Below, in pieces: positions 25,789 through 50,190 of a stretch of 54,443 nucleotides of DNA. Each line of letters opens with the position of its first letter. The first letter of the stretch is position 1. Origin of the DNA: Sphingopyxis sp. KK2 (GTDB lineage: Bacteria > Pseudomonadota > Alphaproteobacteria > Sphingomonadales > Sphingomonadaceae); contig NZ_LYVN01000010.1 in assembly GCF_001990265.1 (NCBI RefSeq), positions 1-54,443 on the forward strand, given 5' to 3'. The position numbers were made by a program, and so were the translations under genes. The notes under the pieces were generated by a model, which was not told the DNA's origin, searched no databases, and was given only the letters and a program-made list of their open reading frames with translations.

Positions 25789-25863
25789 GGGTAACCGATC
25801 GGGAGATGGGTAAGATGCGTTCGTCCCGACACGCCAGATTACCCATCGATGGCCCGCTTACCC
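25789..25863. promoter_or_regulatory. GGGTAA box cluster A (two divergent pairs)
   Basis: GGGTAA lies at 25789-25794 and 25808-25813. Its complement TTACCC lies at 25839-25844 and 25858-25863. Each pair has a 19-bp period. The left pair faces the minus-strand gene at 25721 (67 bp away) and the right pair the plus-strand cupin at 25948 (84 bp away). I propose that they are sites of the LuxR/MalT-like regulator encoded at 33242-35923. Confidence 0.7.
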
Positions 25864-25947
25864 CATGGTCCCGCTTCCTTGGCCGGCCGCGCGCGATTAG
25901 TCTTGGCTGGCAATTTCTGCGCTCATGCTTTCAGCAAGGCTCTTCCG

Positions 25948-26430
25948 ATGGACGATATCAGCCGCCGCAACCTCCTCGCCGCCGCCGCGGTCGGATCGAT
26001 GGCCGGCCCCGTCGCGATGGCCGCTCCCGCCACCGCGTCCAAGGCCCGTCCGTCGCGCTTCATGGTCGAGCGCGCGACCGAGGGGTTCAACAAGTTCAAG
26101 GCGGTCCACGAAGGCCTCGGCGAACTCGGCGTCCGGCTGTTCGATTTCGATGGCGCCGCCGCGCCCGCCAATTTCATGATCTATGACATCCCGCCCGGCG
26201 CGAGCGAGGGCGTGCACCTCCACAATCTCAGCGACCCGGCGCTCGGCCCCTATGAGGAATATTATTATATCGTCGAAGGCAGCGGCGTGATGACGATCGA
26301 TAAGGAAAGATTTCCGGTCACCGCCGGCGACCATGTCTTTGCGCCGCTCGACAGCTGGCGGGGCATCGCCAACGACCATCCCGCCGACAATCTGAAAATC
26401 TTCCTGACCTATATCGACCGCTCGGTTTAG
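25948..26430 (+). CDS. Exported cupin-domain protein
   Basis: The 160-residue protein begins MDDISRRNLLAAAAVGSMAGPVAMAA, with the twin-arginine and hydrophobic core of a Tat signal. The mature domain is a single cupin: PPGASEGVHLHNLSDPALGPYEEYYYIVEGSGVMTID carries the G(X)5HXH(X)nE pattern (His-Leu-His and a following Glu), and VTAGDHVFAPLDSWRGIAND is the second motif. It probably binds a metal and may be a dioxygenase or isomerase in the periplasm. It is the only gene on its strand here, preceded by the right half of box cluster A, and overlaps the M28 peptidase end by 4 bp. Confidence 0.82.
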   Translation: MDDISRRNLLAAAAVGSMAGPVAMAAPATASKARPSRFMVERATEGFNKFKAVHEGLGELGVRLFDFDGAAAPANFMIYDIPPGASEGVHLHNLSDPALGPYEEYYYIVEGSGVMTIDKERFPVTAGDHVFAPLDSWRGIANDHPADNLKIFLTYIDRSV

Positions 26431-28625
26431 CCTGCGGGCGCCGCCGGCAGGCGCAGCGGCCGGATCCACACCTGCCGGTCGCCGGTATGCACCGGCTGCG
26501 CGGTCGCCGGGCGCTTCGCGACCAGCTTCGCACCGGCCTCCCCCGCCCCATAGCGCGTGCGCCGCCAGCTGATTTCGGGCAGCTCGCCCTTCACCGCGAG
26601 GTCGAACTCGACCTCGAGGCGGCGGCAGGTGCGCCCGGTGCAGCCGATATAGACGGGCTCTCCCCTGATCGCCGGACGCGTGCCGTTGACGCGGATGTTC
26701 CGCATCGCCTTGCCATCCTCGATCAGCAGCTCCTGCCGGTCGGACGACGGGGCCACCAGTGCCAGGCGGATGGTGCGGCGAATGCCCGTGACCGTGTCGG
26801 ACAGGATTTCGACGCTGCCGTCATCGGCCAGCTTGGGTGCCGGCGCGCGCCAATAGCCCTTGTCGTCGGGCTGGTCGGCGAATTTCGCCTGTGCGGCGAT
26901 GGCGGGCGGCACCGGGCCATTGTCGTCGATCAGGAACGCCGCCTTTCCGGCATCATCCTCATGGACGATGGTCAGGTGGCGCGGCGCACCGGGGCCATAG
27001 GCGGGAACCATCAGCGCGGCGACGAAGGCACCGAGCATGACCACCGCAAAAACCGCCGGGGTCGCGCGCGTCGCGCGTCCGGCGCCGGGCAGGAAGAAGA
27101 GATACATCAGCACGAGCAGGAAGGTCGCGAGCGCCGCCTGTTCGATGAACAGCCCCTCCTCGAGTCCGCCGCCGAGCGGCAGCGCGACGAGCAGGTAGAC
27201 GACCGCCGCGGCGACGAGCAGCCATGGCACCGCGCGCCGCCCGGCCGGAACGAGCGCGGCGACCGCGGCCGCGATGACGAAGGGCATCGACCAGGCCGCG
27301 AGGATCGTCAGCCCCGGCACGAAGGCGAAAGCGGCAAGGATGAGGATCGCGAGCCAGCCCCAGGCCGCCGCGGTCCCGCGCGCCGCATTGTCCTCGCGCG
27401 ACAAGGCGAGAATCGCCGATGCGCCGGTGAGCGCCGCGGCGGCATAGAGCACACGAAAAACGACGGGCCAGGCGGTGCCGAAATCCGCCTCGGGCCGCAG
27501 CGCCCCGACGAGCATTGCGGCGCCGATCGCGAGGCCGGTGCCGACCACGATCGCGAGCAGCGGGATGAAGGCGCTGCGGATGCGGCGCGCGGTGCCGCCG
27601 CGCCAATAGAGGAGGCCTGCCGCGGCCAGCCCCAGCCCGACGACGACCGCGGCCGCGATCTGGGGCAGTTCGAGCAGAAATTGCCGCCCCACGTCGGTGT
27701 AGACGCGCTGCCCTTCGGCGCCTGCCTTCTTTTGCGCCGCGAAGCGCTCGACCGCCGACAAGGTCGTCGCGCCCATATGGCGCACCGAATTGCGATCGAG
27801 ATGCGCCAGATTGTCGAGCGGCGTGTGATAGCGCTTGCCGCTGCCGATGATCGAATAATTGCCCGCGTCGACCTTCAACGGCAGCAGCATCGTCAGATCG
27901 GTGTCGTTGGGCAGCAGTTCGTAGAAATCGGTCGAGAGCGAATTGGCCGACGGCAGCGGCCGGCCGATCGCGGCGGCGTCGCGCGCATTGGGGGTGCTCG
28001 TCTGGAACATGTTGGCGCCGCCGGTGGTGCCGCGCGCCTCCATGTTGATCACCGCGCCAACGCGCTTCGCGAGCGGATCATGCGCAGCGAAGGCGGCAGC
28101 GCCGATCAGGCCCGCTTCCTCGGCATCGGTGATGACGACGAGCACCGGGCGCGCCAGCGTCCTGCCCTTGAGCTGGGCCGCGATTTCAAGCGCCACCGCC
28201 ATGCCGAGGCCGTCGTCCGCCGCGCCCGGCCCCGCCGCCACCGAATCATGGTGCGACAGGATCATCAGCGCATCGTCCCCTGGCGGGGTGACCCAGAAGG
28301 CGATGTTGCGCGGCCGCGAGCAGATGGCGGCGCCTTCGCGAAGGTCGTTGCAGTGGAAGCGTTCGTCGACCTGCGGCGTGAAGCCGGCCTTGCGGATCTC
28401 GGCGAGCAGCCGTGCTTCGACCGCGTCGTTCGCGTCGCTGTCGGTCGGGTGCGGGCGCTCGTCGCCGAGGATCGTCGCGAGCCGCGCCACCGCGCGGTCG
28501 GTGTCGAAGGGGGTTTCGACCGACGAAGGCGCCTCGACGCCGATCGGGCGCAGCGTCCAAAGCGCGAGCAGGACCAGCCCGATGACGATACCGCGCCCCG
28601 CGCCGCTTTTGATCCAATCAGCCAT
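26427..28625 (-). CDS. M28 family aminopeptidase with C-terminal membrane domain
   Basis: The 732-residue protein has an N-terminal membrane anchor (about 12-30), then an M28 zinc peptidase domain facing the periplasm. Ligands are seen in LSHHDSV (His125/126, Asp127), GAADDGLG (Asp137) and DAEEAGLIG (Glu169/170). From about residue 330 to 560 there are roughly eight hydrophobic helices, and the C-terminal 170 residues are soluble again. This layout resembles yeast-vacuolar Pff1-type M28 proteases. A role in peptide scavenging is likely. Its ribosome-binding region is a G run. It converges on the cupin gene. Confidence 0.88.
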   Translation of the reverse strand: MADWIKSGAGRGIVIGLVLLALWTLRPIGVEAPSSVETPFDTDRAVARLATILGDERPHPTDSDANDAVEARLLAEIRKAGFTPQVDERFHCNDLREGAAICSRPRNIAFWVTPPGDDALMILSHHDSVAAGPGAADDGLGMAVALEIAAQLKGRTLARPVLVVITDAEEAGLIGAAAFAAHDPLAKRVGAVINMEARGTTGGANMFQTSTPNARDAAAIGRPLPSANSLSTDFYELLPNDTDLTMLLPLKVDAGNYSIIGSGKRYHTPLDNLAHLDRNSVRHMGATTLSAVERFAAQKKAGAEGQRVYTDVGRQFLLELPQIAAAVVVGLGLAAAGLLYWRGGTARRIRSAFIPLLAIVVGTGLAIGAAMLVGALRPEADFGTAWPVVFRVLYAAAALTGASAILALSREDNAARGTAAAWGWLAILILAAFAFVPGLTILAAWSMPFVIAAAVAALVPAGRRAVPWLLVAAAVVYLLVALPLGGGLEEGLFIEQAALATFLLVLMYLFFLPGAGRATRATPAVFAVVMLGAFVAALMVPAYGPGAPRHLTIVHEDDAGKAAFLIDDNGPVPPAIAAQAKFADQPDDKGYWRAPAPKLADDGSVEILSDTVTGIRRTIRLALVAPSSDRQELLIEDGKAMRNIRVNGTRPAIRGEPVYIGCTGRTCRRLEVEFDLAVKGELPEISWRRTRYGAGEAGAKLVAKRPATAQPVHTGDRQVWIRPLRLPAAPAG

Positions 28626-28658
28626 ATACCCCCCAAATTGACCCTTGGCCCCTTGCCC

Positions 28659-29972: not shown

Positions 29973-30039
29973 GATGTGACTCTCCCGCCGGCGGCGTCCC
30001 CTGTGGGCGCTCCGGTCCATTCTCGTTCCGGATGATGCG

Positions 30040-30765
30040 TTATTTCAGCTTGGCGAGATGCTTGGCGGCGATCGCCGCCATTTCGGGTCGCCGCTCGAGG
30101 CAGCGCGACACCGGGCCGACCACCACCACCGACAGCAGCCGGTCGTTGCCGGGAAGTGGCAGCGCCACACCCGCCAGATCGGGGGTATATTCGGTGTTGC
30201 TCTGGTGCCAGCCCAGTTCCTCGGCTTCGTCCAGCCGCGCCTCGACCGCCTTGGCATTGGTGGGCGTCGTCCGCGAATAGCGGACGAAATCGATCTTTTT
30301 GTACAGCCGCTCGCGCTCGACCTTGGGCATCTGCACGAGCAGCGCGCGCCCCGCCGAGGTCGCATGGATCGGCACCCGGTCGCCGACGGTCGCAAAATAG
30401 CGCACCGGCTGCAGCGATTCGACGACGTCGACAAAGGTCGCGTGGATGCCGGCGGGCGCCGCGATCGCCACCGTCTCGCCCGTCGCCGCCATAAGGTCGC
30501 GCGCGAGGCGATGATATTTGTCGGGCAAGGGCTCGGCCTGCGCCACCGCCTCGGCGAGCACCAGCCAGCGCGGGCTGGGGTAATAGCCGCCGCGCCCGCG
30601 CGGTTCGTAGAGATAGCCCTTCGACGCCAGCGTCGCGACGATCTTGAAGGTGCTCGACCGCGGCCAGCCGAGGTCCTCGGCGATTTCGGCGGCGGTGGCC
30701 GGACGCAGCCGCTTGGCGAAATATTCTAGGATTTCGAGGACGTTCGCGGCCTGCCGCACGATCAT
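30040..30765 (-). CDS. IclR family transcriptional regulator
   Basis: The 241-residue regulator has an N-terminal winged helix (RQAANVLEILEYFAKRLRPATAAEIAEDLGWPRSSTFKIVATLASKGYL) and a C-terminal IclR effector domain with VYF-like RYFATVGDRVPIHATSAGRALLV and SNTEYTPDLAGVALPLPG. IclR proteins control aromatic and carboxylic acid catabolism and usually bind 14-bp palindromes. Two GGACAT-type palindromes, upstream of the aldehyde dehydrogenase (33143) and of the CoA-transferase (50227), are candidate sites. It lies between the MFS gene and the SDR gene in one gene line. Confidence 0.9.
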   Translation of the reverse strand: MIVRQAANVLEILEYFAKRLRPATAAEIAEDLGWPRSSTFKIVATLASKGYLYEPRGRGGYYPSPRWLVLAEAVAQAEPLPDKYHRLARDLMAATGETVAIAAPAGIHATFVDVVESLQPVRYFATVGDRVPIHATSAGRALLVQMPKVERERLYKKIDFVRYSRTTPTNAKAVEARLDEAEELGWHQSNTEYTPDLAGVALPLPGNDRLLSVVVVGPVSRCLERRPEMAAIAAKHLAKLK

Positions 30766-30858
30766 GGTCTGGTTCGCCTGCTATGCTTCGTGACATCCCA
30801 TATGGCCGAAGCGGCGCGTCCGGAAAAGCCGTCAGCATTTCCGGGTGCGCGCTCACCG

Positions 30859-33142: not shown

Positions 33143-33156
33143 GGACATAAATGTCC
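33143..33156 (-). promoter_or_regulatory. GGACAT-AA-ATGTCC palindrome (candidate IclR operator)
   Basis: A perfect 14-bp palindrome lies 29 bp upstream of the aldehyde dehydrogenase start, just downstream of a TATATT -10-like element (33166-33171, minus strand). A related sequence occurs at 50227-50240. The proximity of an IclR gene in the operon suggests autoregulation. Confidence 0.55.
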
Positions 33157-33187
33157 CCATATAGAAATATAAGTCAAGCGGGCGAAC

Positions 33188-33193
33188 GGGTAA
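33188..33193 (+). promoter_or_regulatory. GGGTAA box B upstream of the aldehyde dehydrogenase operon
   Basis: This single GGGTAA box (inside CGGGTAACCG) is 73 bp upstream of the minus-strand start at 33114 (64 bp from the alternative start at 33123). Its polarity is the same as all other boxes. On the minus strand TTACCC is followed after 16 bp by TATATT, so the box would sit where the -35 element belongs. The partner box is absent or degenerate. Confidence 0.6.
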
Positions 33194-36007: not shown

Positions 36008-36035
36008 TTACCCGTCTTCTTCAAAGCCATTACCC
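36008..36035 (+). promoter_or_regulatory. GGGTAA box cluster C upstream of the hyuA-type operon
   Basis: TTACCC boxes lie at 36008-36013 and 36030-36035 (22-bp period), 91 bp upstream of the GTG at 36127. A weaker GCACCC follows at 36050-36055. No box faces the divergent luxR gene, so that gene is probably not autoregulated through this motif. Confidence 0.65.
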
Positions 36036-36126: not shown

Positions 36127-37725
36127 GTGCGCATCGGTGTCGACGTCGGAGGAACCAACACCGATGCGGTGCTGATTGCCGGGGGCCGCGTGGTCGCCTC
36201 GACCAAGCAGCCGACCAGCGCCGACGTCAGTTCGGGCGTCACCGCCGCGATCGGGGCGATCCTGTCGCAGGCTGGCGTATCCGCCACCAATGTCTCTGCC
36301 GTCATGATCGGCACCACGCATTTCACCAACGCGCTCGTCGAGCGCGACCGGCTCGACCGCGTTGGCATCATCCGGCTCGCGAGTCCCTCGGGCGAAGCCC
36401 TGCCCCCGATGACCGGTTGGCCCCCGGCGCTCGTCGACCGGATCGCGGGCGCGACCTTCCTGCTGCCCGGCGGCTATGAAGTCGACGGGCGCGAGATTTC
36501 GGCGCTCGACGAAGCCGCGGTGCGCGCAGCAGCGCGCGACTGCCGCGAACAGGGCATCACCAGCATCGCGGTCAGCTGCGCCTTTGCCCCGATCAACGCC
36601 GCGATGGAGGAATGGGCGGCGGCGATCATCGCCGACGCGCATCCCGATGCGCAGGCCAGCCTTTCGCACAATGTCGGCCGGCTCGGGCTGATCGAGCGCG
36701 AGAATGGCACCATCCTGAACGCCGCGCTCGCGACCTTGGCGCAACATGTCATGGCCTCGCTCGAACGCGCGCTTTCCACGCTCGGCATCGCCGCCCCGCT
36801 CTATATCTCGCAGAATGACGGGACGCTGATCTCGGCGGCCGAGGCGGCGCGCTATCCGGTGCTGACGATCGGGTCGGGGCCGACGAACAGCATGCGCGGC
36901 GCCGCCTTCCTGACCGGGGTCGACAACGGCATCGTCATGGATGTCGGCGGCACGACCTGCGACATCGGCGTGCTCGCCGGCGGTTATCCGCGTGAATCGT
37001 CGATCGCGGTCGACATCGGCGGGGTGCGGACCAATTTGCGCATGCCCGACATTCTCGCGATCGGCCTCGGCGGCGGCACGCGCATCCATCTGGGCGACAG
37101 CGACGACGGCGTGACCATCGGACCCGACTCGGTGGGCTTCCGCCTGACCGAGGATGCCTGCCTGTTCGGCGGATCGACGCTGACGACCAGCGACGTCGCG
37201 GTCGCGGCGGGCAAGGCCAGCTTTGGCGATCCCGCACTGATCCCGGCACTCGCACCGTCGCTCAGCGCCGCGATCCTTACCCGCATGGCCGACATGCTCG
37301 CCGACGGCATCGACCGCATGAAGACGCAGTCGGGCGATGTCACGATCATCGCGGTCGGCGGCGGCCATTTCCTGATCGACGACGATGTGAAGGGGGCGGC
37401 GCATGTCGTGCGGCCCGACCATGCCGCGGTCGCCAACGCCGTCGGCGCCGCGATCGCCCAGGTCGGGGCGCAGGCCGACCGCATCATCGATTATGACGCC
37501 GAACCCCGCGCCGCCGCGCTCGAGGAAATGCGCGAAACGCTCCTCGCGCGGGTCGTCGCGGCGGGAGCCACGCGCGAAACAGCAGAGATTGTCGACATGG
37601 ACGAAGTGTTTCTTTCCTACCTGCCCGGCCGGTCGGCGCAATTGCGCATGAAGGCGGTCGGCAGCCTCGCCGATGCCGACAGCGCGACCGCCGCCCCGCG
37701 GACGGAGGCGCGCCATGTTCATTGA
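36127..37725 (+). CDS. Hydantoinase/oxoprolinase family protein (HyuA-like, short form)
   Basis: The 532-residue protein of the actin-like ATPase superfamily starts with the phosphate-binding loop GVDVGGTNTDAVLI (about 4-17). It continues with IGTTHFTNALVERD, then SGPTNSMRGAAFLTG and VMDVGGTTCDIGVLAGG, the second phosphate loop. It is shorter than catabolic HyuA or 5-oxoprolinase subunits (about 690 residues) and belongs to the type that accompanies DUF917 proteins. The GTG start follows GGGAGG (36113-36118). It overlaps the DUF917 gene by 11 bp. The substrate is unknown; an ATP-driven opening of a lactam or cyclic amide is the family theme. Confidence 0.88.
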   Translation: MRIGVDVGGTNTDAVLIAGGRVVASTKQPTSADVSSGVTAAIGAILSQAGVSATNVSAVMIGTTHFTNALVERDRLDRVGIIRLASPSGEALPPMTGWPPALVDRIAGATFLLPGGYEVDGREISALDEAAVRAAARDCREQGITSIAVSCAFAPINAAMEEWAAAIIADAHPDAQASLSHNVGRLGLIERENGTILNAALATLAQHVMASLERALSTLGIAAPLYISQNDGTLISAAEAARYPVLTIGSGPTNSMRGAAFLTGVDNGIVMDVGGTTCDIGVLAGGYPRESSIAVDIGGVRTNLRMPDILAIGLGGGTRIHLGDSDDGVTIGPDSVGFRLTEDACLFGGSTLTTSDVAVAAGKASFGDPALIPALAPSLSAAILTRMADMLADGIDRMKTQSGDVTIIAVGGGHFLIDDDVKGAAHVVRPDHAAVANAVGAAIAQVGAQADRIIDYDAEPRAAALEEMRETLLARVVAAGATRETAEIVDMDEVFLSYLPGRSAQLRMKAVGSLADADSATAAPRTEARHVH

Positions 37726-38821
37726 CGATGCCGCCGTGCTGGCGGACCTGGCGAGCGGCGCGGCCTTTCTGGGGTCGGGCGGCGGCGGCGATCCTTATTA
37801 CAGCCTGCTGCTGGCCGAGGCGGCGCTCGCGCGCTGCGGACGGTTCGAGCTGGTCTCGCTCGCCGATGTGGCCGACGATGCGCTGCTCGCCCCTTGCGGC
37901 TGGATCGGCGCGCCGACGGTGTCGGTCGAAAAATTGCCCAACGGCAAGGAGGCGGTGTCGGGGCTCCGGCGGCTCGAGGAGATCATGGGCAAGCCGATCG
38001 ACGCGGTGCTGCCGATCGAGATCGGCGGCGGCAACGGCCTTGCGCCCTTCATCGCCGCGGCCGAGCTGGGCATCCCCGTGATCGACTGCGACGGCATGGG
38101 CCGCGCCTTTCCCGAATCGCAGATGGCGATCTTCAACATTCGCGGCATTTCGGCCTGCCCGTCGGTGCTCACCGCCGCCGACGGATCGCTGAGCGTCATC
38201 GAGACCGGGGATAATCTCACGCACGAACGCATCGCACGCGCGCTGGCGGTCTCGCTCGGCGGCATCGCGCATATGGTCGAATATCCGCTGACCGGCGCTG
38301 AGGCGAAGGCGCATGCCGTGCCGGGCAGCGTCAGCGCGGCGATCGCCGTGGGCCGCGCGGTGCGCGAAGCTCGCGCCGGCGGCGCCGACCCGTTCGCGGC
38401 GCTGGGCAAGGCGCTCGAAGCGACCGGCCTCTATCCGCATTGCCTGACCCTGTTCGACGGCAAGATCGTCGATCTCGAACGCGAAACGCGCGGCGGCTTT
38501 TCGGTCGGCACGGTGACGATCGACGGTTTCGCGGACAGCGGCCGGATGGAGATCGAGTTCCAGAACGAGAATCTCGTCGCGACGCGCGACGGCAAGGTCC
38601 TCGCGATGGTCCCCGATATCATCACCGTGATGGACCGCGACACCGCCGACACGATCACGACAGAAAAACTGAAATATGGCCAGCGGGTCAAGGTGATCGC
38701 GGCCGCCGCGCCCGACATTTTGCGCGACGACCATGCGCTGTCCTTTGTCGGGCCGCGTGCTTTCGGTATGGGCTATGACTTCGCCCCGGTGGAAGCGTTG
38801 AACGAGACGGAGACGGCATGA
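37715..38821 (+). CDS. DUF917 family protein
   Basis: The 368-residue protein has the DUF917 hallmark GSGGGGDPYY near residues 21-30, a later IEIGGGNGLAPFIAAAELGIPVIDCDGMGRAFPE block, and a C-terminal beta-rich region with KVLAMVPDIITVMD. It is predicted soluble. DUF917 partners of HyuA-like proteins are thought to form a two-component hydrolase-like enzyme, but no reaction is established to my knowledge. GGAGG at 37704-37708 supports the ATG inside the end of the HyuA gene, and the ATGA overlap with the permease gene implies tight coupling. Confidence 0.88.
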   Translation: MFIDDAAVLADLASGAAFLGSGGGGDPYYSLLLAEAALARCGRFELVSLADVADDALLAPCGWIGAPTVSVEKLPNGKEAVSGLRRLEEIMGKPIDAVLPIEIGGGNGLAPFIAAAELGIPVIDCDGMGRAFPESQMAIFNIRGISACPSVLTAADGSLSVIETGDNLTHERIARALAVSLGGIAHMVEYPLTGAEAKAHAVPGSVSAAIAVGRAVREARAGGADPFAALGKALEATGLYPHCLTLFDGKIVDLERETRGGFSVGTVTIDGFADSGRMEIEFQNENLVATRDGKVLAMVPDIITVMDRDTADTITTEKLKYGQRVKVIAAAAPDILRDDHALSFVGPRAFGMGYDFAPVEALNETETA

Positions 38822-40086
38822 GCGCAGAGGCGGGCGGGAATTATGCGAGCGGGCGCCTGCCCGAAGAGCTGACCATCCCCGGCTGGCGCGTTGCGCTGAT
38901 CATCGCGAGTTTCACCTTCTCGCTCCCCGGCTTTCTCAACAACGCACAGGCGGGGCTCGCGCTCGGCATGAACCAGGCGGTGCTCGCGGCGCTCGGCGCC
39001 GGGCTGATCCTCTGCGCGGGGGCCTGCCTGACCGCGATCGTCAGCGTGCGCACCCGGCTCACCACCTATATGCTCGTCCAGCGCTCCTTCGGCCTGTGGG
39101 GCGCGGCGCTGGTCAACATCGTCATTGCGATCGTCCATTTCTGCTGGTTCGGGGTCAATGTCTCCTTCTTCGGCGACGCGATGGTCGCCGCCGCGCAGGA
39201 CGGCTACGGCATCCCCGGGAACTTCAACCTCTTCGTCATCCTCGGCAGCGTCATCATCACCCTGTCGACGATCTGGGGTTTTCGTACCCTCGACCGGCTG
39301 GCGATGGTCGCGGTTCCCTTCGTCGGGGTGATCCTGATCGCGGTGTGCGTCGTCGCGCTCGGCGACAATCCCGCCCCCGACCTGGGTCCGGTCGCCGCGC
39401 CGCCGGTGCCGATGAGCTTTGGCATCGCGCTGTCGTCGCTCGTCGGCGGCAATCTCCTCACGGTCGCGGCGATGCCCGACCTGTCGCGCTTCATTCGCAC
39501 CGAGCGCGGCGCGGTGTCGGCGATGCTGCTCTCCTTCCCCTTTTGCGCGCCACTGATCATGCTGGTTTCGGCGCTGATCGCGCTGACCACCGGCCAGACC
39601 GACATCATGAAGCTCGTCGTCGCGCTGGGCTTCGGCCTGCCCGCGCTCGCAATGCTGATCCTTTCGGTGTGGACGATCAACGCGCTCAACCTCTATTCGG
39701 CGGGTCTGTCGCTGGCGGCGACCTTCCCGCGCCTGAAACAGGGCTGGATCATCGTCATCGGCGGCGCGATCGGCTGCCTGTTCGCGCTGCTCGGCATCAT
39801 CAACAGCTTCATCCCCTTCCTGATCGCGCTCGGCCTGATCATCCCCCCGATCGCCGCGATTTACGTGATCGACGGCTTCATGACCTTCCGCGATCGCGAC
39901 GAAGTGGCGACCGTAGCGGTGCGCTGGGAGGCCATAGGCGTATGGATCGGCAGCCTCGCGATCACCCTGCCCGCGATGCAGATGGGCTGGACGCTGACGA
40001 CGGTACCCGCGCTCGACGCGACGATCCTCGCCGCCGGTGCCTATCTCACCGTGCTGCGCCTGCGCCGCCAGGAGGCATTGGCTTGA
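38818..40086 (+). CDS. NCS1 family permease (cytosine/purine permease-like)
   Basis: The 422-residue protein has about 12 helices, with FSLPGFLNNAQAGLALGMNQ in the first region and VGGNLLTVAAMPDLSRFIRTERGAV in the middle, both typical of NCS1 permeases of the CodB type. NCS1 members carry cytosine, allantoin, hydantoins and related heterocycles. Together with the HyuA-DUF917 pair this implies uptake of a cyclic amide or nucleobase-like compound. The start overlaps the DUF917 stop (ATGA), and its own stop overlaps the TTG of the next gene. Confidence 0.88.
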   Translation: MSAEAGGNYASGRLPEELTIPGWRVALIIASFTFSLPGFLNNAQAGLALGMNQAVLAALGAGLILCAGACLTAIVSVRTRLTTYMLVQRSFGLWGAALVNIVIAIVHFCWFGVNVSFFGDAMVAAAQDGYGIPGNFNLFVILGSVIITLSTIWGFRTLDRLAMVAVPFVGVILIAVCVVALGDNPAPDLGPVAAPPVPMSFGIALSSLVGGNLLTVAAMPDLSRFIRTERGAVSAMLLSFPFCAPLIMLVSALIALTTGQTDIMKLVVALGFGLPALAMLILSVWTINALNLYSAGLSLAATFPRLKQGWIIVIGGAIGCLFALLGIINSFIPFLIALGLIIPPIAAIYVIDGFMTFRDRDEVATVAVRWEAIGVWIGSLAITLPAMQMGWTLTTVPALDATILAAGAYLTVLRLRRQEALA

Positions 40087-40952
40087 AGCTTCTCGCCGCA
40101 AGCTTCGTGCTGGCCCTGACCGCGCCCATGGCCACGCTCGCCGCCGAACCCACAGCGCCAGCGCCCTATGCGATGCCCGAGACCGAGGCGTGGGACATGA
40201 CATCGGCCACGGGCCGGACCTATCGCATCTTCGTGTCGCGCCCCGCAGGCGAGGCACCCGAGGGCGGCTATCCGATTCTGTATGTCCTCGACGGCAATGC
40301 GATGTTCGCGGGCTTCGCCGAGGCGCGGCGTATTCAGGGCTTCGGCGGGCGCGACCTCGACAAGATGATCGTCGTTGGCATCGGCCATCCCGGCGAGCAG
40401 GTCTATGACGCGCGCCGGATGGAAGATTTCACCGGGCCGCTGGTCACCCCGGCGCTCAAACAGCTTTACGCCAAATATCTCTCGGGCGGCCGCGACGCCT
40501 TTCGCGCCTTCCTGCTCGATGAACTCAAGCCCGCGATCGCCAAACGCTACAAGCTGCATCCACAGCGGCAGGCGCTCTACGGTCATTCGCTCGGCGGACT
40601 TTTCGCGCTCCACCTCTTCTACTCGCATCCCGGCGCCTTCGACACGATCGTCGCCGCGAGCCCCTCGATCTGGTGGGACGATCAGGCGATCCTCGCCGAA
40701 GAAGCCGCTTGGCGCACCCGCGCCGGGAAGGACGCCAAGCTGGCGCGCCGCACGCGTCTGCTGCTGATCGCGGGCGAACTGGAGAGCGACGGATCGATCG
40801 CGCAGGACAGCGCCGCGCTAGCCGGGCGCCTCGCGCCGCTGTCGGCAGCGGGGCTGCGCAGCGACTTCCTGCTGCTCGACGGCGAGACGCACGTCACCGT
40901 GCCGCACCGCTCGATCACCGCGACGATGCGCGCGGTGATGCGCTGGCCCTGA
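40083..40952 (+). CDS. Exported alpha/beta hydrolase (esterase, Fes/IroE-like)
   Basis: The 289-residue protein has a signal peptide (about 1-20). The nucleophile is Ser169 in YGHSLGG, with a late His in GETHVTVPHRS, the pattern of the putative esterase/enterochelin hydrolase group. The TTG start at 40083 overlaps the permease stop (TTGA) and is supported by AGGAGG (40070-40075) with a 7-nt spacer. It ends one base before the convergent amidohydrolase stop. It may hydrolyse an ester outside the cell membrane before uptake, or process an iron chelator. Confidence 0.82.
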   Translation: MKLLAASFVLALTAPMATLAAEPTAPAPYAMPETEAWDMTSATGRTYRIFVSRPAGEAPEGGYPILYVLDGNAMFAGFAEARRIQGFGGRDLDKMIVVGIGHPGEQVYDARRMEDFTGPLVTPALKQLYAKYLSGGRDAFRAFLLDELKPAIAKRYKLHPQRQALYGHSLGGLFALHLFYSHPGAFDTIVAASPSIWWDDQAILAEEAAWRTRAGKDAKLARRTRLLLIAGELESDGSIAQDSAALAGRLAPLSAAGLRSDFLLLDGETHVTVPHRSITATMRAVMRWP

Positions 40953-42677
40953 TTATTTGGTCGCGGCGTCCCAGTCGCCGAACACCGGCTTGCCCTCGAA
41001 CAGGGTGACCAGCACCTTGGTCTTGGAAATCTCATAGACCGGCAGCTTGAAGATATCCTTGTCGAGGATGACGAGGTCGGCGCTCTTGCCCGCCTTGATC
41101 GACCCCGTGACATCGTCGAAGCCGTTGACATAGGCGACGTTGATCGTGTGGCTCGCGATCGCGTCCTTCAGGCTGACGCCTTCGTCGGGCAGCAACGGTT
41201 TCGCGTTCGGATCGCCCGCGGTACGCCGCGTCATCGCGACCTCGATACCCTCCAGCGGATTCGCGCCGCCCACCGGCCAGTCGGCGCCATAGGCAAGCTT
41301 GCCACCCGCGCGGACGATGCTGCCCGCCGGGTAGATATAGGTGGCGCGCTTCGGGCCGATCGCGGCGACGGTCAGGTCCATATAGTCGTACCACGACGCC
41401 CAGGTCGGCTGGAACTGCGCAAAGGTCGCGAGCTTGCCGAAGCGCGGCTGGTCGCCGGGGTCGACGACATTCATATGGGTGATCATATGATGCGTCGGTT
41501 TGGCGCCATTCGCGGTGCGCGCCGCCTCGATCGCGTCGAGCGAGATATGCACCCCGCCATCGCCGATCGCGTGGAGGAAGGCGTGCATGCCCTTGCCATC
41601 GACAGCGGTGACCGCCTGTTTCAGCACCTCGGGCGCGATCTGCGGCGTGCCGCGCTCGTCGCCGCTATTCTCATAGGGCGCGAGCATGAAGGCGGTCTTT
41701 TGCGGGATCACCCCGTCGACATAGAATTTGACCGTGTGCGTCGAAATACCCAGCGCATTGGCGCGCTCGGCGGCCTTCAGCAGTCCGGGGAGTTGCTCCA
41801 TGCCCTCCTCGTTCTTCCACTTCAGCGACACCGCGACATGGCTCGTCAGCTTGCCCGCATCGAGCACCGCCTTATACGCATCGACCATCGCGCTGCCGCC
41901 GTCGGCGCCATATTCGACCCCGGCGTCGTTCCAGCTGGTGATGCCGAGGCTGTTGAAATGATCGGCGACGTAGAGGATCGAATTCTGCACCTCGGTCGCC
42001 GAGGGCGGCGGGATCATATGCTTGACCAGGTCCATCGCGGCTTCCTGCAGGCTGCCGACCGGCTCGCCCGTCGCGGGGTCGCGGTCGATCGTGCCGTTGG
42101 CAGGGTCGCTGGTGTCGCGCGTGATCTTCGCGACCTCGAGCGCCTTCGAATTGAGCCAATAGGTGTGCCCGCCGGTCGATTCGAAGATCAAAGGCCGCGT
42201 CGTCGACACCGCATCGAGCAATTCCTTGCGCGGGATGCCGCTCGGCGGGAACAGCGCGTCGCTCCACCCGATGCCATAGACTGCCCCGTCGCCGGGTGCC
42301 GCCGCGACGCATTTGGCGATCAACGCCTGATAATCGGCGATCGTCTTGCCGTCCTGCAGCGGGCAGCGCGTGCGGCTCAAGGCCCCGAACAGCGGATGGA
42401 CATGCGCGTCGCCGAAAGCCGGAAGCACCAGCTTGCCGCCGACATCGACCGTCCGCGTCGCCGCCCCGCGCAGCTTGCTGACGCTCGCCGCCGTTCCGAC
42501 CGCAACGATCTTGCCGTCCAGAATCGCAACCGCCTCGGCCCAGGGCTGCTTCTCCTCGACCGTATAGACGCGCGCGTTGGTCAGGATCAGGTCGGCCTCG
42601 ACCCGGTCCTTCGCATGCGCGGCCCCCGACAGGCTCAGCAGGGCGACGAGGGTGGCAGAGGCAACGGCTTTCGACAT
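40953..42677 (-). CDS. Exported amidohydrolase, YtcJ/amidohydrolase-3 type
   Basis: The 574-residue enzyme has a signal peptide (about 1-22: MSKAVASATLVALLSLSGAA). A beta-sandwich start ILTNARVYTV precedes the barrel, then VLPAFGDAHVHPLFG with metal ligands His92 and His94, and MHAFLHAIGDGGVHISLDAIE with further His ligands. A C-terminal sheet closes the fold. Related enzymes deacylate or hydrolyse N-acyl and cyclic compounds. I chose the start at 42677 to include the signal peptide. Its upstream region carries two GGGTAA boxes in the right polarity (42784, 42804), shared with the divergent GntR gene. Confidence 0.88.
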   Translation of the reverse strand: MSKAVASATLVALLSLSGAAHAKDRVEADLILTNARVYTVEEKQPWAEAVAILDGKIVAVGTAASVSKLRGAATRTVDVGGKLVLPAFGDAHVHPLFGALSRTRCPLQDGKTIADYQALIAKCVAAAPGDGAVYGIGWSDALFPPSGIPRKELLDAVSTTRPLIFESTGGHTYWLNSKALEVAKITRDTSDPANGTIDRDPATGEPVGSLQEAAMDLVKHMIPPPSATEVQNSILYVADHFNSLGITSWNDAGVEYGADGGSAMVDAYKAVLDAGKLTSHVAVSLKWKNEEGMEQLPGLLKAAERANALGISTHTVKFYVDGVIPQKTAFMLAPYENSGDERGTPQIAPEVLKQAVTAVDGKGMHAFLHAIGDGGVHISLDAIEAARTANGAKPTHHMITHMNVVDPGDQPRFGKLATFAQFQPTWASWYDYMDLTVAAIGPKRATYIYPAGSIVRAGGKLAYGADWPVGGANPLEGIEVAMTRRTAGDPNAKPLLPDEGVSLKDAIASHTINVAYVNGFDDVTGSIKAGKSADLVILDKDIFKLPVYEISKTKVLVTLFEGKPVFGDWDAATK

Positions 42678-42783: not shown

Positions 42784-42859
42784 GGGTAACTCCCGGTGAA
42801 GACGGGTAAGCCTTGTCGCCGGTCGCCGGACGCTTCCCCAATATTCGCCCGGCTTACCC
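42784..42859. promoter_or_regulatory. GGGTAA box cluster D (two divergent pairs)
   Basis: GGGTAA lies at 42784-42789 and 42804-42809 (20-bp period), facing the amidohydrolase. TTCCCC, a one-base variant, lies at 42834-42839 and TTACCC at 42854-42859 (20-bp period), facing the GntR-PepSY genes. The arrangement copies cluster A almost exactly, with a 30-bp distance between the inner boxes here and 31 bp there. Confidence 0.7.
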
Positions 42860-42930: not shown

Positions 42931-43347
42931 ATGCTGTACAACTGGCATATCGGCCTGCGCGACCGCATCGATCGCAGCCGCCGCGACCCACTCCATTTCC
43001 AGATCGCCCATGCGATCGTCCATGATATTGAGCATGGGCGGCTTGCCCCGGGCGCGTGGCTGCCGAGCAGCCGCTATCTGGCGGAAACGCTCGGCTTCAA
43101 CCGAAAGGCCGTTGTACGAGCCTATGAACGGCTGATCGCGCAAGGCTGGCTGACCAGCCTCGGAACGCGCGGGACCGCGGTTGCAGCGGCGCTGCCATGC
43201 CTTTCGGCGACGTCGCGATTGCCCGATGCGGGTCCCTGCGGGGTCGGCTATCGCTTCCGCAAACCTCGACGCGACCGCGCGACGCGGGGCCTTGCATCGG
43301 TGGCACCCGGCGCATCTTCGGACATCCAACGGAAAGACCAGCAATGA
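42931..43347 (+). CDS. Short GntR family regulator (MocR-like head without aminotransferase domain)
   Basis: The 138-residue protein has a GntR winged helix at about residues 17-85: DPLHFQIAHAIVHDIEHGRLAPGAWLPSSRYLAETLG, then NRKAVVRAYERLIAQGWLTSLGTRGTAV. The motif order and LPSSR match the MocR/PdxR subgroup, which normally continues into a 350-residue aminotransferase-like domain. Here the protein ends with about 50 basic residues instead. It overlaps the next gene by 4 bp (ATGA). It could be a natural stand-alone regulator of the YtrA type or a truncated MocR protein. Confidence 0.78.
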   Translation: MLYNWHIGLRDRIDRSRRDPLHFQIAHAIVHDIEHGRLAPGAWLPSSRYLAETLGFNRKAVVRAYERLIAQGWLTSLGTRGTAVAAALPCLSATSRLPDAGPCGVGYRFRKPRRDRATRGLASVAPGASSDIQRKDQQ

Positions 43348-44439: not shown

Positions 44440-44465
44440 TTACCCTTCGCACCCGCCGCTTACCC
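44440..44465 (+). promoter_or_regulatory. GGGTAA box cluster E upstream of the gene at 44566
   Basis: TTACCC boxes lie at 44440-44445 and 44460-44465 with a 20-bp period. The cluster starts one base after the PepSY gene stop and lies 100 bp upstream of the ATG at 44566. Polarity is the same as in all other plus-strand targets. Confidence 0.7.
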
Positions 44466-44565
44466 AAAGACCCTGCTGACCGTCCCCGCCCATTGTGCTG
44501 AGTTCGCTCCGGGCGGATTCGGCGCAACGGGCGCCGGCTGGGTCGTCAATAGGGAGGTCTTGGAC

Positions 44566-45192: not shown

Positions 45193-45201
45193 GACCAGCA
45201 A

Positions 45202-45873: not shown

Positions 45874-45879
45874 GGCCGC

Positions 45880-47817
45880 CTAGAGCATATCCATGACCTG
45901 CCCGGCGGCGCGGTACGCCTCGTGCATCGCGTGCGCCATCGCCATTTCGCCGAGCAGTTCGGAATGGGCAAAGATGATGCGGCCGTGCGGTTTGCGGATC
46001 ACATCCGACGGTGGCGGCGCGCCGTCGCGGCCGAAATAGAAACCCGGCTGCGGCGCGACATAGGCATGCCCCCAGCGGTTGAGGATGATCCCCGCGATAT
46101 CGCGCTTCGCATCGAAACCCGCCGCCGCGAAACCTGCAGTCAATTGCTCGCGCAGCTGGCGCTCGAAATCGGCATAGCTCGTTGCGAACAGCTGCGCACG
46201 CCCCGCAGGCCCCTGTTGCGGACCCGGCAAATCGGGGTGCAGAAAGGGGATGTAGAAGGTCAGCACCGTCGGGCTGTCGGGGGTGAAGACCGGCGCGCCG
46301 CCCATATCGACATTACGCCGGATCGATGTCTGCCAGCCGAGCGCGTCGAACCAGCGCGTGTTGGTAAAACCCAGCTTGTCGAAGGCGCGCCAGTTACGAA
46401 GCGCCACATTCGCGATCATCACCGGCCCGTGGTGGAATTCGCCATAGGCCTTGCGATGCCCCTCGGGCATGTCGGACACGATGCGGCGGTTCACCCAGCC
46501 GCCCGATGCCATCACGACCGCTTTCGCCCGCACGCGGCGAACCTTGCCGTCCCGTGCATAACTGACGATCGCATGGTCGGCCGTCGCCGCGTCGCCGGGA
46601 TGCCGCACGTCGATCGCGGTCGAGCCCGAACGGATGCGGACCTTGTTGCCCGCTTGGTCGAGCTTCGCGGGGTCGATCGCACCGCCGATGGGCGCGAGGC
46701 TGCCCTCCCCCTGAGTCCGGATCGCCCCGGGGATCATCCGCGCCAGCATGATGCGCATGAAGGCGGTGTTGCCGCCGGGAAAGGAGACGAGCCCGATGTC
46801 CGACGACGAAATCACCTTGTCCTTGATCGTCGTGCCGGGCAGCCGCAGCCGATGCGCGGCAAAGGCCGAGATACCGCTGCCGCACACGCCATAATTGCCG
46901 ACCGCGATGCCGGGATCGATATAATCGCGCACCTCGGTCCCATAGCCGAGCTTGTCGAGCAGCTGGTAATAGGTGAGCGTATCGAGCCACTTTTCCGGGT
47001 CCGCCACCCCGGCCAGCCCGTCGCGCCGGTCGGCGACAAAATCATCGAGCTGCTTCTTTGCCAAAGCCGACCAAGGCGTCTTGGCAAAGCCGTCCTTTGT
47101 CGGGTTCGCGACCCAGCCCGTGCCGGGGAAATGATAGCCGGTGGCATAGGCCTTTTCCCATGCGGGGGCCATCGGGCCGAAATGATAGTCGGTCAGCTCA
47201 TATTTCTCGGCCCCGCCGCCGAGCGGTTCGAGGTCATATTGGGTCGGCAGCCCGAACTCGCGATAATAGTCGGTGAAGATGTCGTAGGTGCCTTCGCCGA
47301 AGCTGCCGCGGATATAGCCGGGACGCGGGACGATCGCGCCGTTCGAACCCTGCGGCGCGATCAGGCGACGGCCGTCGATGTCGAACTCGTTCTGCTTCGC
47401 CTCGCCGCCGACCACCGGATGATTGTCGAGCAGCAGGCAGGTCTTTCCCGCGCCCGCGCGTTTCGAAAATTCATAGGCCGCGGTCATCCCCGAAAACCCG
47501 CCGCCGACGATCACCAGATCGAAATCCTCGTCGACCGCTTTGGTCGAAGGATCGGCATAAAGGCCATCGCGGATGCCATGGGCGGCGTTGACGACGGCCT
47601 GGGTATTGCCGTTCGACCAGGCATAATCGCCGACCCCGCCATAGCCGGTCCACGACGATCCCGACGGCGCCCAGGGACCGTCGGCGTTCTCACCGGCGCC
47701 GCCGCAACCCGCGACCAGCGCCGCGCCGCTCGCGACCATCGCGCCGTTGAAGAAATCGCGCCGCGTGATGCGACTGCCCATGCCGAGCAGGTCGTCCGAC
47801 CGTTGTCCGCCCATCAT
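45880..47817 (-). CDS. Tat-exported lipoprotein flavoenzyme, spermidine dehydrogenase-like
   Basis: The 645-residue FAD/NAD(P)-binding oxidoreductase has an N-terminus that carries SRITRRDFFNG, a perfect twin-arginine motif, and then ALVAGCGG, a lipobox, so it is probably folded in the cytoplasm, exported by Tat and lipidated. The Rossmann motif DLVIVGGGFSGMTAAYEFSKR begins about residue 100. The overall layout (KQNEFDIDGRRLIAPQGSN, GVCGSGISAFAAHRL) matches the spermidine/polyamine dehydrogenase-like family. It lies between the TonB receptor and the dioxygenase gene, separated from the receptor by a strong terminator. It probably oxidises an amine or polyamine-type compound in the periplasm. 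Confidence 0.82.
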   Translation of the reverse strand: MMGGQRSDDLLGMGSRITRRDFFNGAMVASGAALVAGCGGAGENADGPWAPSGSSWTGYGGVGDYAWSNGNTQAVVNAAHGIRDGLYADPSTKAVDEDFDLVIVGGGFSGMTAAYEFSKRAGAGKTCLLLDNHPVVGGEAKQNEFDIDGRRLIAPQGSNGAIVPRPGYIRGSFGEGTYDIFTDYYREFGLPTQYDLEPLGGGAEKYELTDYHFGPMAPAWEKAYATGYHFPGTGWVANPTKDGFAKTPWSALAKKQLDDFVADRRDGLAGVADPEKWLDTLTYYQLLDKLGYGTEVRDYIDPGIAVGNYGVCGSGISAFAAHRLRLPGTTIKDKVISSSDIGLVSFPGGNTAFMRIMLARMIPGAIRTQGEGSLAPIGGAIDPAKLDQAGNKVRIRSGSTAIDVRHPGDAATADHAIVSYARDGKVRRVRAKAVVMASGGWVNRRIVSDMPEGHRKAYGEFHHGPVMIANVALRNWRAFDKLGFTNTRWFDALGWQTSIRRNVDMGGAPVFTPDSPTVLTFYIPFLHPDLPGPQQGPAGRAQLFATSYADFERQLREQLTAGFAAAGFDAKRDIAGIILNRWGHAYVAPQPGFYFGRDGAPPPSDVIRKPHGRIIFAHSELLGEMAMAHAMHEAYRAAGQVMDML

Positions 47818-47846
47818 CTGCCTCTCGCACATATTCCAAGAAAAAC

Positions 47847-47871
47847 GGCGGCCGGGGATGCCCCGGCCGCC
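47847..47871 (-). terminator. Strong rho-independent terminator of the TonB receptor gene
   Basis: A perfect 11-bp stem GGCGGCCGGGG (47847-47857) / CCCCGGCCGCC (47861-47871) with an ATG loop is followed on the minus strand by TTTTT (47841-47845). It lies between the receptor stop (47902) and the flavoenzyme start (47817), so most transcripts from the receptor should end here. Confidence 0.9.
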
Positions 47872-47901
47872 GCCCCATGAAGACCTTGTCAACTGCCCCG
47901 T

Positions 47902-49983
47902 TCAGAACTTGTAGGTCAGCGTCCCCTGAACGGTTCGCGGCTCGCCGTTCGCACACGACCCGAACGCCGAGCAGCCCGGATAATAGACCTCGTCGAACAG
48001 GTTGATCGCGTTGAACTGGAGCGTCCACGCCTTGTAGTCGAGCGCCACCATTGCATCGGCCAGCGTGTAGCTGGGCGTTTCCACCACAAAGGCACCGCCG
48101 AACGGATCCGAGTTAAGTTTCCCCGTATAGCGGACGCCGCCGCCGATGCGCATGCTGAGATCGTTGCCGAGTTCGACGGTCTTGGTGCCGAAGATGCTGG
48201 CAAGATATTTCGGCGTATCATCGCGCTGGCGGTCCTGACCCGACAGCCGGACCGTGCCATAGGCGAAAGCAGCGACGAGCGAGAAATCGTCGGCGACATT
48301 ATAGTTCGCCTGGAACTCGACGCCCTTCGCCTTGACCGATCCGGTCTGAATCGAATTCAGCGGATTGCTCGGGTCGGTGCGGAGCGCATTATCTTCCTTG
48401 AGATCGTACAGCGACACGCGCAGCATCGTCGCGCGGGTCGGCTGCCATTTGACGCCGACTTCGACCTGCTTGCCGAACAGCGGCTGATAGGCGCTGCCGA
48501 ACTGGTTGAGCCCCGAGATCGGCAGGAAGGATTCCGAATAGCTGATATAGGGCGCCAGCGTCGACGTGGCGTTGATGGTCAGGCCAGCGCGCTTGGTGGT
48601 CTTCTTGGTCTTCTCGACCGGCGCACCGACATCCACCTTCGAGACGCTGTCGTGGCGGATGCCGAGGACCAGCGACGCCACCTGGCCGAAGTCGATCTGG
48701 TCCTGCAGATAAAAGCCGGTCTGCTTCAGAATCTGCGTGTTGAAGAAGTTGAACACCGGGGCGGGGGCGGTGCCATAGACCGGGTTATAGACATCGATCG
48801 CCCCGGCATTTTCGACGAACGCCTGCCCCGACACCTGCTTGAAATAGGAATAGTCGACGCCCGCGAGCAGCTGGTGCGAGGCCGGGCCGGTCTCGAACTT
48901 GAACGCGACGCCATTGTCGGTGTTGAACGTCCGATATTTGATGTTGATCGCGAACAGGTTGCGCGGAACCGCCGTGGTGCCGGGCAGGAACGGATCGAGC
49001 GGACCGCCCGGGCTCAGATAGGTCGCGAGATAATATTCGGCCTGCTTGGTATTGGCCCAGGTGTAGCGGGTCGAACTGCGGAGGCTGAACGCGTCCGAAA
49101 ATTCATGCGTCGCGAGCAGGCTGACCGCCGTATATTCCTTGTCGCCGCGATTGATGTCCGGCTCGCCGAAGAAGCTCGAGTTGCGGATACGCTGGCCCGG
49201 CAACGCCAGGAGCGATCCGACGAGCGGCATGACGTTATAGTTCGGCGGGTTATGATCTTCCTGATAGATGCCGATCAGGTCGATATTGGTCTGCTCGCCT
49301 GGCCTCCAGGTCAGCCCCCCCTGCGCCACGACGCGATCGTTGCGCGTGAAATCCATGCGCGAGTCCGAATCGCGTACCACGCCGACGAACCGCGCCGCGA
49401 GCGTGTCGCTGAGCGGACCGGTGACGTCGACGGTCGCTTCCTTGCGGTCGAAGGTGCCATAGCTGACGCTCGCACTGCCGCCGAAGTCGAATTGCGGGCG
49501 CTTGGTCTGCATGTTGGTGATGCCGCCCGAACTGCCGGCCCCGTACAGCACGGAGGCCGGGCCGACGAGCACTTCGACGCGCTCGAGCGTCGCGATTTCG
49601 GGACGCGGCATATAGACGAAGCCATAGTTGCGCTTCAGCCCATCCACATAGAGTACCGATTCGAAGCCGCGTATGTTGTTGAAATCGCCGCGCGAATCGT
49701 CGCCGCCGTTATAGACGCCCGCCGTATATTTCAGCGCTTCGCGGATGTTCAGCGCGCCGCGGTCCTGCATTTCCTCCACCGTGACGACTTCGATCGCCTG
49801 CGGAATGCGCAAGATGGGGGTGTCGGTCTTGGTCGCGGAGGTCGCGGACGTACCGGTCACCACGATATCGGACTCGTCGGTCGTTTCGGACTGGGCGAAG
49901 GCCGGCTGCGCGCAGGCCAGCGCCAGCAGCGACACCCCGAGCGATCCCCGCACCACCGCACGATCTAAACAAACGCGCATCAT
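47902..49983 (-). CDS. TonB-dependent siderophore-type receptor
   Basis: The 693-residue outer-membrane receptor has a signal peptide cleaved near ACAQPAFAQ (about residue 30). The N-terminal plug contains DIVVTGTSATSATKTDTPILRIPQAIEVVT, then DRGALNIREALKYTAGVYNGGDD, RIERVEVLVGP-like RPEIATLERVEVLVGPASVLYG and GSSGGITNMQTKRP, the pattern of siderophore receptors such as FhuA/FecA relatives. It ends in the terminal strand TVQGTLTYKF. AGGGGG supports the ATG at 49983. A strong terminator follows. The promoter region shows GGGTAA boxes F. No Fur box is obvious, so regulation by the catabolic LuxR rather than by iron alone is possible. Confidence 0.93.
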   Translation of the reverse strand: MMRVCLDRAVVRGSLGVSLLALACAQPAFAQSETTDESDIVVTGTSATSATKTDTPILRIPQAIEVVTVEEMQDRGALNIREALKYTAGVYNGGDDSRGDFNNIRGFESVLYVDGLKRNYGFVYMPRPEIATLERVEVLVGPASVLYGAGSSGGITNMQTKRPQFDFGGSASVSYGTFDRKEATVDVTGPLSDTLAARFVGVVRDSDSRMDFTRNDRVVAQGGLTWRPGEQTNIDLIGIYQEDHNPPNYNVMPLVGSLLALPGQRIRNSSFFGEPDINRGDKEYTAVSLLATHEFSDAFSLRSSTRYTWANTKQAEYYLATYLSPGGPLDPFLPGTTAVPRNLFAINIKYRTFNTDNGVAFKFETGPASHQLLAGVDYSYFKQVSGQAFVENAGAIDVYNPVYGTAPAPVFNFFNTQILKQTGFYLQDQIDFGQVASLVLGIRHDSVSKVDVGAPVEKTKKTTKRAGLTINATSTLAPYISYSESFLPISGLNQFGSAYQPLFGKQVEVGVKWQPTRATMLRVSLYDLKEDNALRTDPSNPLNSIQTGSVKAKGVEFQANYNVADDFSLVAAFAYGTVRLSGQDRQRDDTPKYLASIFGTKTVELGNDLSMRIGGGVRYTGKLNSDPFGGAFVVETPSYTLADAMVALDYKAWTLQFNAINLFDEVYYPGCSAFGSCANGEPRTVQGTLTYKF

Positions 49984-50086
49984 AACGCCCCCTTCTCTTT
50001 CTGTTGGTCTAGGTCCTGATTCCCTGGTCGTCTTCAATCTGTCATGCGACTGTAGATCGCTTGAAAATCTGTGGTTGGCCCAAATC

Positions 50087-50190
50087 GGGTAAAAGCCGTT
50101 TATGATGGGTGGATTTTGGCCTCTCCGGCGCGCTTACCCACGGCTAACTGCGACAAAACCAGCCATCTCTGCGGCCTTGGCCGCTTACCC
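50087..50190. promoter_or_regulatory. GGGTAA box cluster F between TonB receptor and CoA-transferase
   Basis: GGGTAA lies at 50087-50092 and the variant GGGTGG at 50107-50112 (20-bp period), facing the minus-strand receptor (103 bp). TTACCC lies at 50134-50139 and 50185-50190, facing the plus-strand CoA-transferase (84 bp from the nearer box). The last two have a 51-bp separation, unlike the other clusters. Confidence 0.65.

Follow-up and report, generated by a model that had tools for sequence, protein, structure and literature searches.

Background

MalT of E. coli, the activator of the maltose regulon, combines a STAND NTPase, a TPR region and a LuxR-type helix-turn-helix (HTH), and the excerpt of PMC10427625 that we used reports that ATP and inducer drive its oligomerisation and its cooperative binding. 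Here we analyse a regulator of the same layout from Sphingopyxis sp. KK2, encoded on contig NZ_LYVN01000010.1 (NCBI RefSeq assembly GCF_001990265.1), whose whole length of 54,443 nucleotides is called the window in what follows. Within it, the intergenic regions of an island of 25 kb carry the hexamer GGGTAA or its complement TTACCC, and an earlier reading of the letters alone, the original prediction, proposed that this box links the operons of the island to its LuxR protein. The comparisons reported below make it highly likely that the boxes are the operator of this MalT-type protein, and that it would activate the promoters in question; the box itself is very probably its landing site. Being of the STAND type, the protein would assemble with itself upon binding ATP and an inducer, presumably a compound from the pathway, sit on the boxes side by side, and recruit RNA polymerase. 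The promoters so activated would be those of the HyuA-DUF917-permease-esterase operon, the secreted amidohydrolases, a TonB receptor, a PepSY protein and a YbiX-type dioxygenase.

In MalT promoters, as in the island, the box turns its G-rich end toward the -35 element: this is our own reading of the positions in the excerpt of PMC7567727. By an estimate from the same excerpt, the G-rich end in the island is farther upstream than the -34.5/-35.5 of MalT, by about one helical turn. Contrary to MalT proper, the island protein scores 310.9 bits against the MalT equivalog model NF003420 (NCBIfam), whose cutoff is 537. The classical MalT box GGGGA(T/G)GAGG, with at most one mismatch, occurs 9 times in the window against 8.3 expected, and these chance-level counts led us to reject it as the site of the island. 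Among the 28 reading frames scanned, none belongs to the glycoside hydrolase or maltose-transport families, so control of maltose genes is not indicated.

The MalT of Actinoplanes sp. SE50/110 also addresses many promoters of a large co-regulated region through one motif, but this motif is a palindrome, TCATCC-5-GGATGA, that overlaps the -35, whereas the island has direct repeats upstream of the -35 (excerpt of PMC7567727). The LAL regulators of Streptomyces antibiotic clusters are, in the excerpts at hand, likewise large ATP-binding proteins of the LuxR family, several of them tied to their own cluster; they belong to another phylum and another type of cluster. An excerpt of PMC12352068 describes DNA affinity purification sequencing (DAP-seq) of one LuxR protein of Novosphingobium aromaticivorans. 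Among the literature matches listed, all of them openly licensed papers, we found no description of the GGGTAA box or of such a regulon. A MalT-type activator working on direct-repeat sites is a known kind of system; the site, the regulon and its spread are apparently new. Beyond those of enteric bacteria and actinomycetes, a DNA site is known for few regulators of the MalT type.

The proposed regulator and the boxes

The LuxR protein consists of an AAA NTPase, a MalT-like TPR region and a GerE HTH (Pfam TPR_MalT, 48.6 bits for a cutoff of 45; GerE, 46.4 for 23.5; AAA_22, 38.5 for 27). With NTPase, TPR and C-terminal LuxR HTH in about 900 amino acids, it has the layout of the MalT type (LAL), and its N-terminal half, residues 4-415, matches the solved E. 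coli MalT 8bob (E 4.5e-50).

All 15 exact GGGTAA positions of the original prediction are present, as are the variant boxes at 42834 and 50107. Four more copies, at positions 24, 30578, 34330 and 37277, bring the window to 19, the last three lying inside the IclR, LuxR and hyuA reading frames, respectively; 4.8 copies are expected, and 19 was reached in none of 100 shuffles. Five exact direct pairs, spaced by about two helical turns (19, 19, 20, 20 and 22 bp), account for ten of the 15 boxes. These pairs stand 68, 85, 92, 98 and 107 bp from the start codons, close to the 64-106 bp first given, and the extended form GGGTAAGC is exact at 6 places of the window. The genome-wide scan that had been called for, over the 4.34 Mb and 320 contigs of the window's own genome, finds GGGTAA-N13-16-GGGTAA five times, each time inside the window. 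Loosening the gap to N10-20 yields 6 occurrences, 5 of them inside the window, against one for the reversed control pattern.

Box pairs follow the luxR gene

A scan of named genomes yielded 31 loci, of which 29 carry a LuxR protein at 49-94% identity; two pairs of loci among these 29 come from one metagenome-assembled genome (MAG) each. Loci and genomes are cited by L and G numbers where they must be told apart. These orthologs belong to Sphingopyxis, Sphingosinicella, Henriciella, Caulobacter, Croceicoccus, Sphingomonas, Novosphingobium, Niveispirillum, Luteimonas and uncultured relatives. Where the alignment rows extend to it, their HTH, SNKEIARLIGMSPDTVKYRLKSVFRKIGV, is near-invariant, and for the most part it is unlike the ENTVKFHLK type of the paralogs. 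In a sample of 397 genomes of the family, nine have a close ortholog (at least 54% identity) and 24 more have only paralogs (25-33%). Ten other sampled genomes of the window's genus gave no LuxR match at the cutoff, so that the island appears sporadic.

The pattern GGGTAA-N13-16-GGGTAA was searched in all 397 family genomes. The nine with luxR hold 32 pairs in total, each at least two. The 388 without a close ortholog hold 116 pairs in 83 genomes, a mean of 0.30, and 24 of them have two or more; the association of at least two pairs with luxR has a Fisher p of 6e-11, kinship being uncorrected. Among the 24 genomes with paralogs only, G203 has 2 pairs and the other 23 have none. The additional genomes with luxR that were reached through the named loci all carry pairs (21/21, 1-5 each, 60 in total). 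One of them, G414, equals G381, with pairs at the same places, which leaves 29 distinct genomes with luxR, all with pairs.

When tandem hexamers at 19-22 bp are ranked over 27 of the 29 ortholog loci (L016 and L027 were dropped as being of the same species as L015), GGGTAA reaches 48 pairs against 0.14 expected. The other top-ranked words are GC-rich, at about 1.0-1.8 times their expectation, and the reversed control word forms no pair in any of the 61 loci examined. Around 21 MalT-type paralogs (25-33% identity), no GGGTAA pair was found, in loci of 4-6 kb as against mostly about 22 kb for the orthologs, and the eight top tandem words there are all GC-rich. The attribution of the boxes to the LuxR protein thus gains support from the co-occurrence, from the pair-free paralog loci, from the near-invariant recognition helix of the orthologs, and from the unlinked targets described below. 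Homologs of the 209-aa secreted protein of the island (E<=1e-25) occur in 4 of the 397 genomes, all with luxR, which leaves no luxR-less carriers to compare.

One more LuxR ortholog, carried by a plasmid of Novosphingobium, had no part in any definition. The expected pair stands between its luxR and the TonB gene, and its hyuA has a pair that deviates by one base; as the promoters closely resemble those of L028, this case is only weakly independent. In G201, two luxR copies lie about 41 kb apart (L097 and L099), each with box-bearing neighbours. On a plasmid of Novosphingobium sp. EMRT-2 (L173, 11718-11865), the gene of a MalT-type LuxR protein of 32% identity neighbours those of a TonB receptor and of HyuA/HyuB. 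That receptor is preceded by two GGGTAG words 28 bp apart, which read gene-ward, in the orientation opposite to that of the island boxes: this is perhaps a sister regulon with an altered box, or chance.

Candidate targets and promoters

The pairs of the 29 genomes, together with two of L027, number 91. For 78 of them, a listed gene starts at most 330 bp downstream, with TTACCC reading gene-ward: HyuA (25), TonB receptor (22), 209-aa secreted protein (9), amidohydrolase (8), cupin (5), a second esterase (3), the 154-aa secreted protein (2), PepSY (2), an esterase (1) and GntR (1), the counts for the 209-aa protein and the amidohydrolase including the window's own. In all 25 HyuA cases the pair lies 91-99 bp from the gene. 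The comparison of orthologous islands, also proposed at the outset, finds paired boxes recurring before the same set of genes.

Two of the 13 unassigned pairs precede other long reading frames (L005, L011). Among the other eleven, seven are inside a reading frame of more than 150 aa, like background, and a background of 0.30 per genome over 29 genomes amounts to about nine pairs. The pair at L005 21341 and L100 6960 stands ahead of a 460-aa reading frame that has no listed homolog, a possible extra member of the regulon.

Some targets are not linked to luxR. In G201, a pair precedes a TonB receptor 1.5 Mb away from luxR (L106). In G085, pairs precede the 209-aa gene on two other contigs (L093, L094), with the dioxygenase behind it in L093, and the contig ending at L094. 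In G381, contig 16 has pairs before the amidohydrolase and an esterase (L092). These unlinked targets are the strongest evidence for the link between LuxR and box. Some of the box-bearing TonB receptors are only 36-40% identical to that of the window.

Read toward the gene, the box is TTACCC, and many distal copies read TTACCCGTCTT. In many promoters, the distance from the start of the last box to that of a sigma-70-like -35 is 16-17 bp. The hyuA promoters have a third, degenerate copy, CACCCG, about 20 bp further on, followed by TTGCGC or similar as -35; the hyuA promoter thus consists of three boxes, an exact pair and a degenerate third, which corrects the original prediction. Direct-repeat sites upstream of the -35 are present at the island promoters, in a form that would suit a MalT-type regulator. 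With a crude sigma-70 scoring, and offsets counted from the start of the second box, 38 of 62 non-redundant promoters have their best -35 at offsets 15-18 or 35-39. Over 300 shuffles the count averaged 5.9 and never exceeded 16; the offset classes were set after inspection, and 24 of the 62 promoters did not fit them.

Many promoters have their boxes upstream of the predicted -35, which is the usual place for an activator, and MalT is an activator (excerpts of PMC7567727 and PMC10427625). Both facts speak against the alternative that LuxR binds the boxes but represses, or that it acts on only part of the listed genes. What this alternative has for it is that only five promoters of the window have an exact pair, and that the boxes of the CoA-transferase and of the aldehyde dehydrogenase (ALDH) are poorly conserved. 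We consider it unlikely.

The target list of the original prediction survives in part. The hyuA operon, the amidohydrolase, the cupin, the 154-aa protein and the 209-aa protein with its dioxygenase have exact pairs; GntR and the TonB receptor have one exact and one degenerate box. The ALDH operon does have a box, a single one, without a counterpart in the Sphingomonas loci. The CoA-transferase is a doubtful target, the box nearest to it being absent from the relatives.

Besides the shorter paralog loci and the promoters that did not fit the offset classes, several points weigh against LuxR as the activator that works through the boxes. The GGGTAA box of the ALDH promoter is absent from all 8 Sphingomonas loci compared, and neither the CoA-transferase nor, in Sphingomonas, the ALDH operon is supported as a target. 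The gene list was partly set after viewing: the Sphingomonas-type TonB receptor (19 pairs), the second esterase (3) and the esterase (1) were added, and without these three late queries, which account for 23 pairs, 55 of the 91 pairs are assigned. For 26 of the 91 pairs, the opposite reading likewise leads to a listed gene, so that targets cannot be assigned by direction alone. The exact hyuA pair is missing in three Novosphingobium loci and one Niveispirillum locus: in L018, L020, L028 and L029 the distal box deviates by one base. The hyuA promoter of L011 has another, more divergent arrangement. Finally, the reversed control (AATGGG word) is not rare, with 29 matches against 60 pairs in the 21 genomes, and 4 against 32 in the nine family genomes with luxR; the number of pairs is thus weaker evidence outside the family than their places. 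To these points must be added the distribution of the IclR gene, to which we now turn.

Other regulators, or none

The boxes might belong to the IclR protein of the ALDH operon. An IclR protein (E<=1e-75) occurs in 8 family genomes, all of which have luxR (8/9), so both genes track the boxes. However, an IclR ortholog (E<=1e-40) was not found in 7 of the 21 genomes with luxR that have pairs: Henriciella, Caulobacter sp. 602-1, three Novosphingobium and two Niveispirillum, the completeness of these seven, one of them a MAG, not being given. Genomes with luxR that lack IclR keep their pairs, which makes IclR an unlikely binder of the box. Moreover, the ALDH promoter, which lacks GGGTAA in Sphingomonas loci, carries a palindrome that is probably the site of IclR itself. 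We regard IclR as box binder as very improbable.

It is equally hard to believe that the binder of the boxes is GntR (42931-43347), or a regulator whose gene lies elsewhere than in the island. A GntR homolog is present in 7 of the 9 family genomes with luxR, but G085 and G150 have none at E<=1e-15, yet carry 6 and 3 pairs; and a family-wide regulator would leave pairs in luxR-less genomes, where the average is the 0.30 given above.

Last, the copying of whole blocks between genomes, rather than function, could have kept the pairs, the island being sporadic (9/397) and found in distant taxa, and therefore having probably moved; this is barely credible, with luxR identity down to 49%, with pairs also at the unlinked targets and at the TonB receptors of 36-40% identity, and with promoter flanks that have diverged while the unselected third box and the T of the -35 are invariant. 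The flanks were compared in 15 aligned hyuA promoters, chosen for carrying the pair, so that the invariance of the two hexamers is by selection. Their mean column identity is 44%, and outside the selected hexamers all 15 agree only in the CCC and a single T within the third box and in the T that opens the -35.

Features of the island

Under the preferred reading, that of a LuxR activator on TTACCC boxes, the features of the window are those of Table 1.

Table 1. Boxes, promoter elements, palindromes and genes, in window coordinates
Feature	Position	Strand	Remarks
Box pair, TTACCC twice, 19 bp	25789..25813	-	For the secreted 154-aa protein/amidohydrolase unit, start 25721, minus strand
Box pair, 19 bp	25839..25863	+	For the cupin, start 25948
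Palindrome TTTCTATATGGGGACATTTATGTC	33144..33167	-	0 mismatches; probable IclR-type operator, outside the GGGTAA regulon
Single box	33188..33193	-	16 bp ahead of TTGACT (-35), ALDH-SDR-IclR-MFS operon
LuxR-family regulator, MalT (LAL/STAND) type, 893 aa	33242..35923	-	Putative box binder
hyuA promoter, box pair, 22 bp	36008..36035	+	Exact direct pair
hyuA promoter, third box GCACCC	~36050	+	Degenerate; 20 bp further on
hyuA promoter, -35 TTGCGC, 17 bp, -10 TGTAAT	after third box	+	
HyuA/S-Me-THD (DUF917)/NCS1-type permease/esterase	36127..40952	+	Target operon
Box pair, 20 bp	42784..42809	-	For the amidohydrolase (Amidohydro_3), ATG at 42677, minus strand
GntR/PepSY promoter	42834..42859	+	Exact box 42854-42859; degenerate distal box at 42834
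Box pair, 20 bp	44440..44465	+	For the secreted 209-aa protein and the Fe2+-dependent (YbiX-type) dioxygenase
TonB-receptor promoter	50087..50112	-	Exact box 50087-50092; degenerate partner GGGTGG at 50107, 20 bp apart
Box toward CoA-transferase	50134..50139	+	Kept in 4/4 relatives; ~140 bp from start 50275
Box near CoA-transferase	50185..50190	+	Absent in 4/4 relatives
Second IclR-type palindrome	50216..50251		Before CoA-transferase; 2 mismatches on each strand

Several of these sites recur in individual relatives. Box pairs likewise precede the ortholog of the 154-aa protein in L004 and the cupin orthologs of L001, L002, L012 and L098. The ALDH box is exact, 16-17 bp before TTGACT, in L001, L002, L003, L012 and L097, with a one-base variant in L004. 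The exact box of the GntR/PepSY promoter is kept in L001, L004 and L012, the three of three with a GntR match, the distal box being degenerate by eye. At the promoter of the 209-aa protein and dioxygenase, the -35 is CTGACC, followed after 17 bp by TGAGTT. The exact TonB box is kept in four of four relatives and its GGGTGG partner in three, L169 having GGGTGA. As for the CoA-transferase, the position of box 50134 is conserved while its role at this gene is uncertain, and box 50185 is possibly a chance occurrence.

Possible substrate

With a TonB receptor, amidohydrolases, hydantoinase-type enzymes, a permease and an iron-type dioxygenase, the set of targets points to a substrate. Our guess is that the enzymes act on a cyclic amide or a hydantoin-like compound; HyuA, DUF917 and the amidohydrolase match NCBIfam models only at scores far short of the cutoff. 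The TonB receptor is of the siderophore type (TIGR01783, above cutoff), and it may be guessed from this receptor, the PepSY protein and the Fe2+-dependent dioxygenase that there is a link to iron.

It is tempting, though a doubtful conjecture as a whole, to see here a transferable module. A MalT-type STAND activator oligomerising on two or three TTACCC boxes would have moved, together with box-bearing operons, among the Alphaproteobacteria and into Luteimonas (Gammaproteobacteria). It would have captured members by box acquisition, among them genes on other contigs and TonB receptors from different subfamilies, and would control how an undescribed compound, a cyclic amide or hydantoin-like and possibly iron-binding, is taken up and opened. 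Because the site, its spacing, its place in the promoter and the targets come from comparison alone, binding, induction and the discovery of the ligand are directly testable, and a hyuA-promoter reporter would serve as a substrate assay.

A probable second regulator

The palindrome TTTCnATATnnGGACAnnnnnGTC, with at most 3 mismatches, has two sites in the window, at the ALDH and CoA-transferase promoters (3 matches against 0.12 expected). We infer that it would be the operator of the IclR protein in the ALDH-SDR-IclR-MFS operon, that this protein controls the operon, and probably the CoA-transferase as well. Palindrome-like sequence is seen by eye at other ALDH promoters, including those of Sphingomonas loci, and the core GGAC-N6-GTC of the CoA-transferase palindrome is kept in L168, L169 and L171, and not in L170. 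One LuxR box would have been added at the ALDH promoter in the Sphingopyxis-like group.

The two palindrome sites suggest a second, overlapping regulon, that of the IclR protein at 30040-30765. In L007 and L022 (Henriciella and a Niveispirillum MAG), where no IclR ortholog was found, TTACCC stands upstream of the ALDH gene and no palindrome is seen by eye: the two promoters look as if control had switched from IclR to LuxR.

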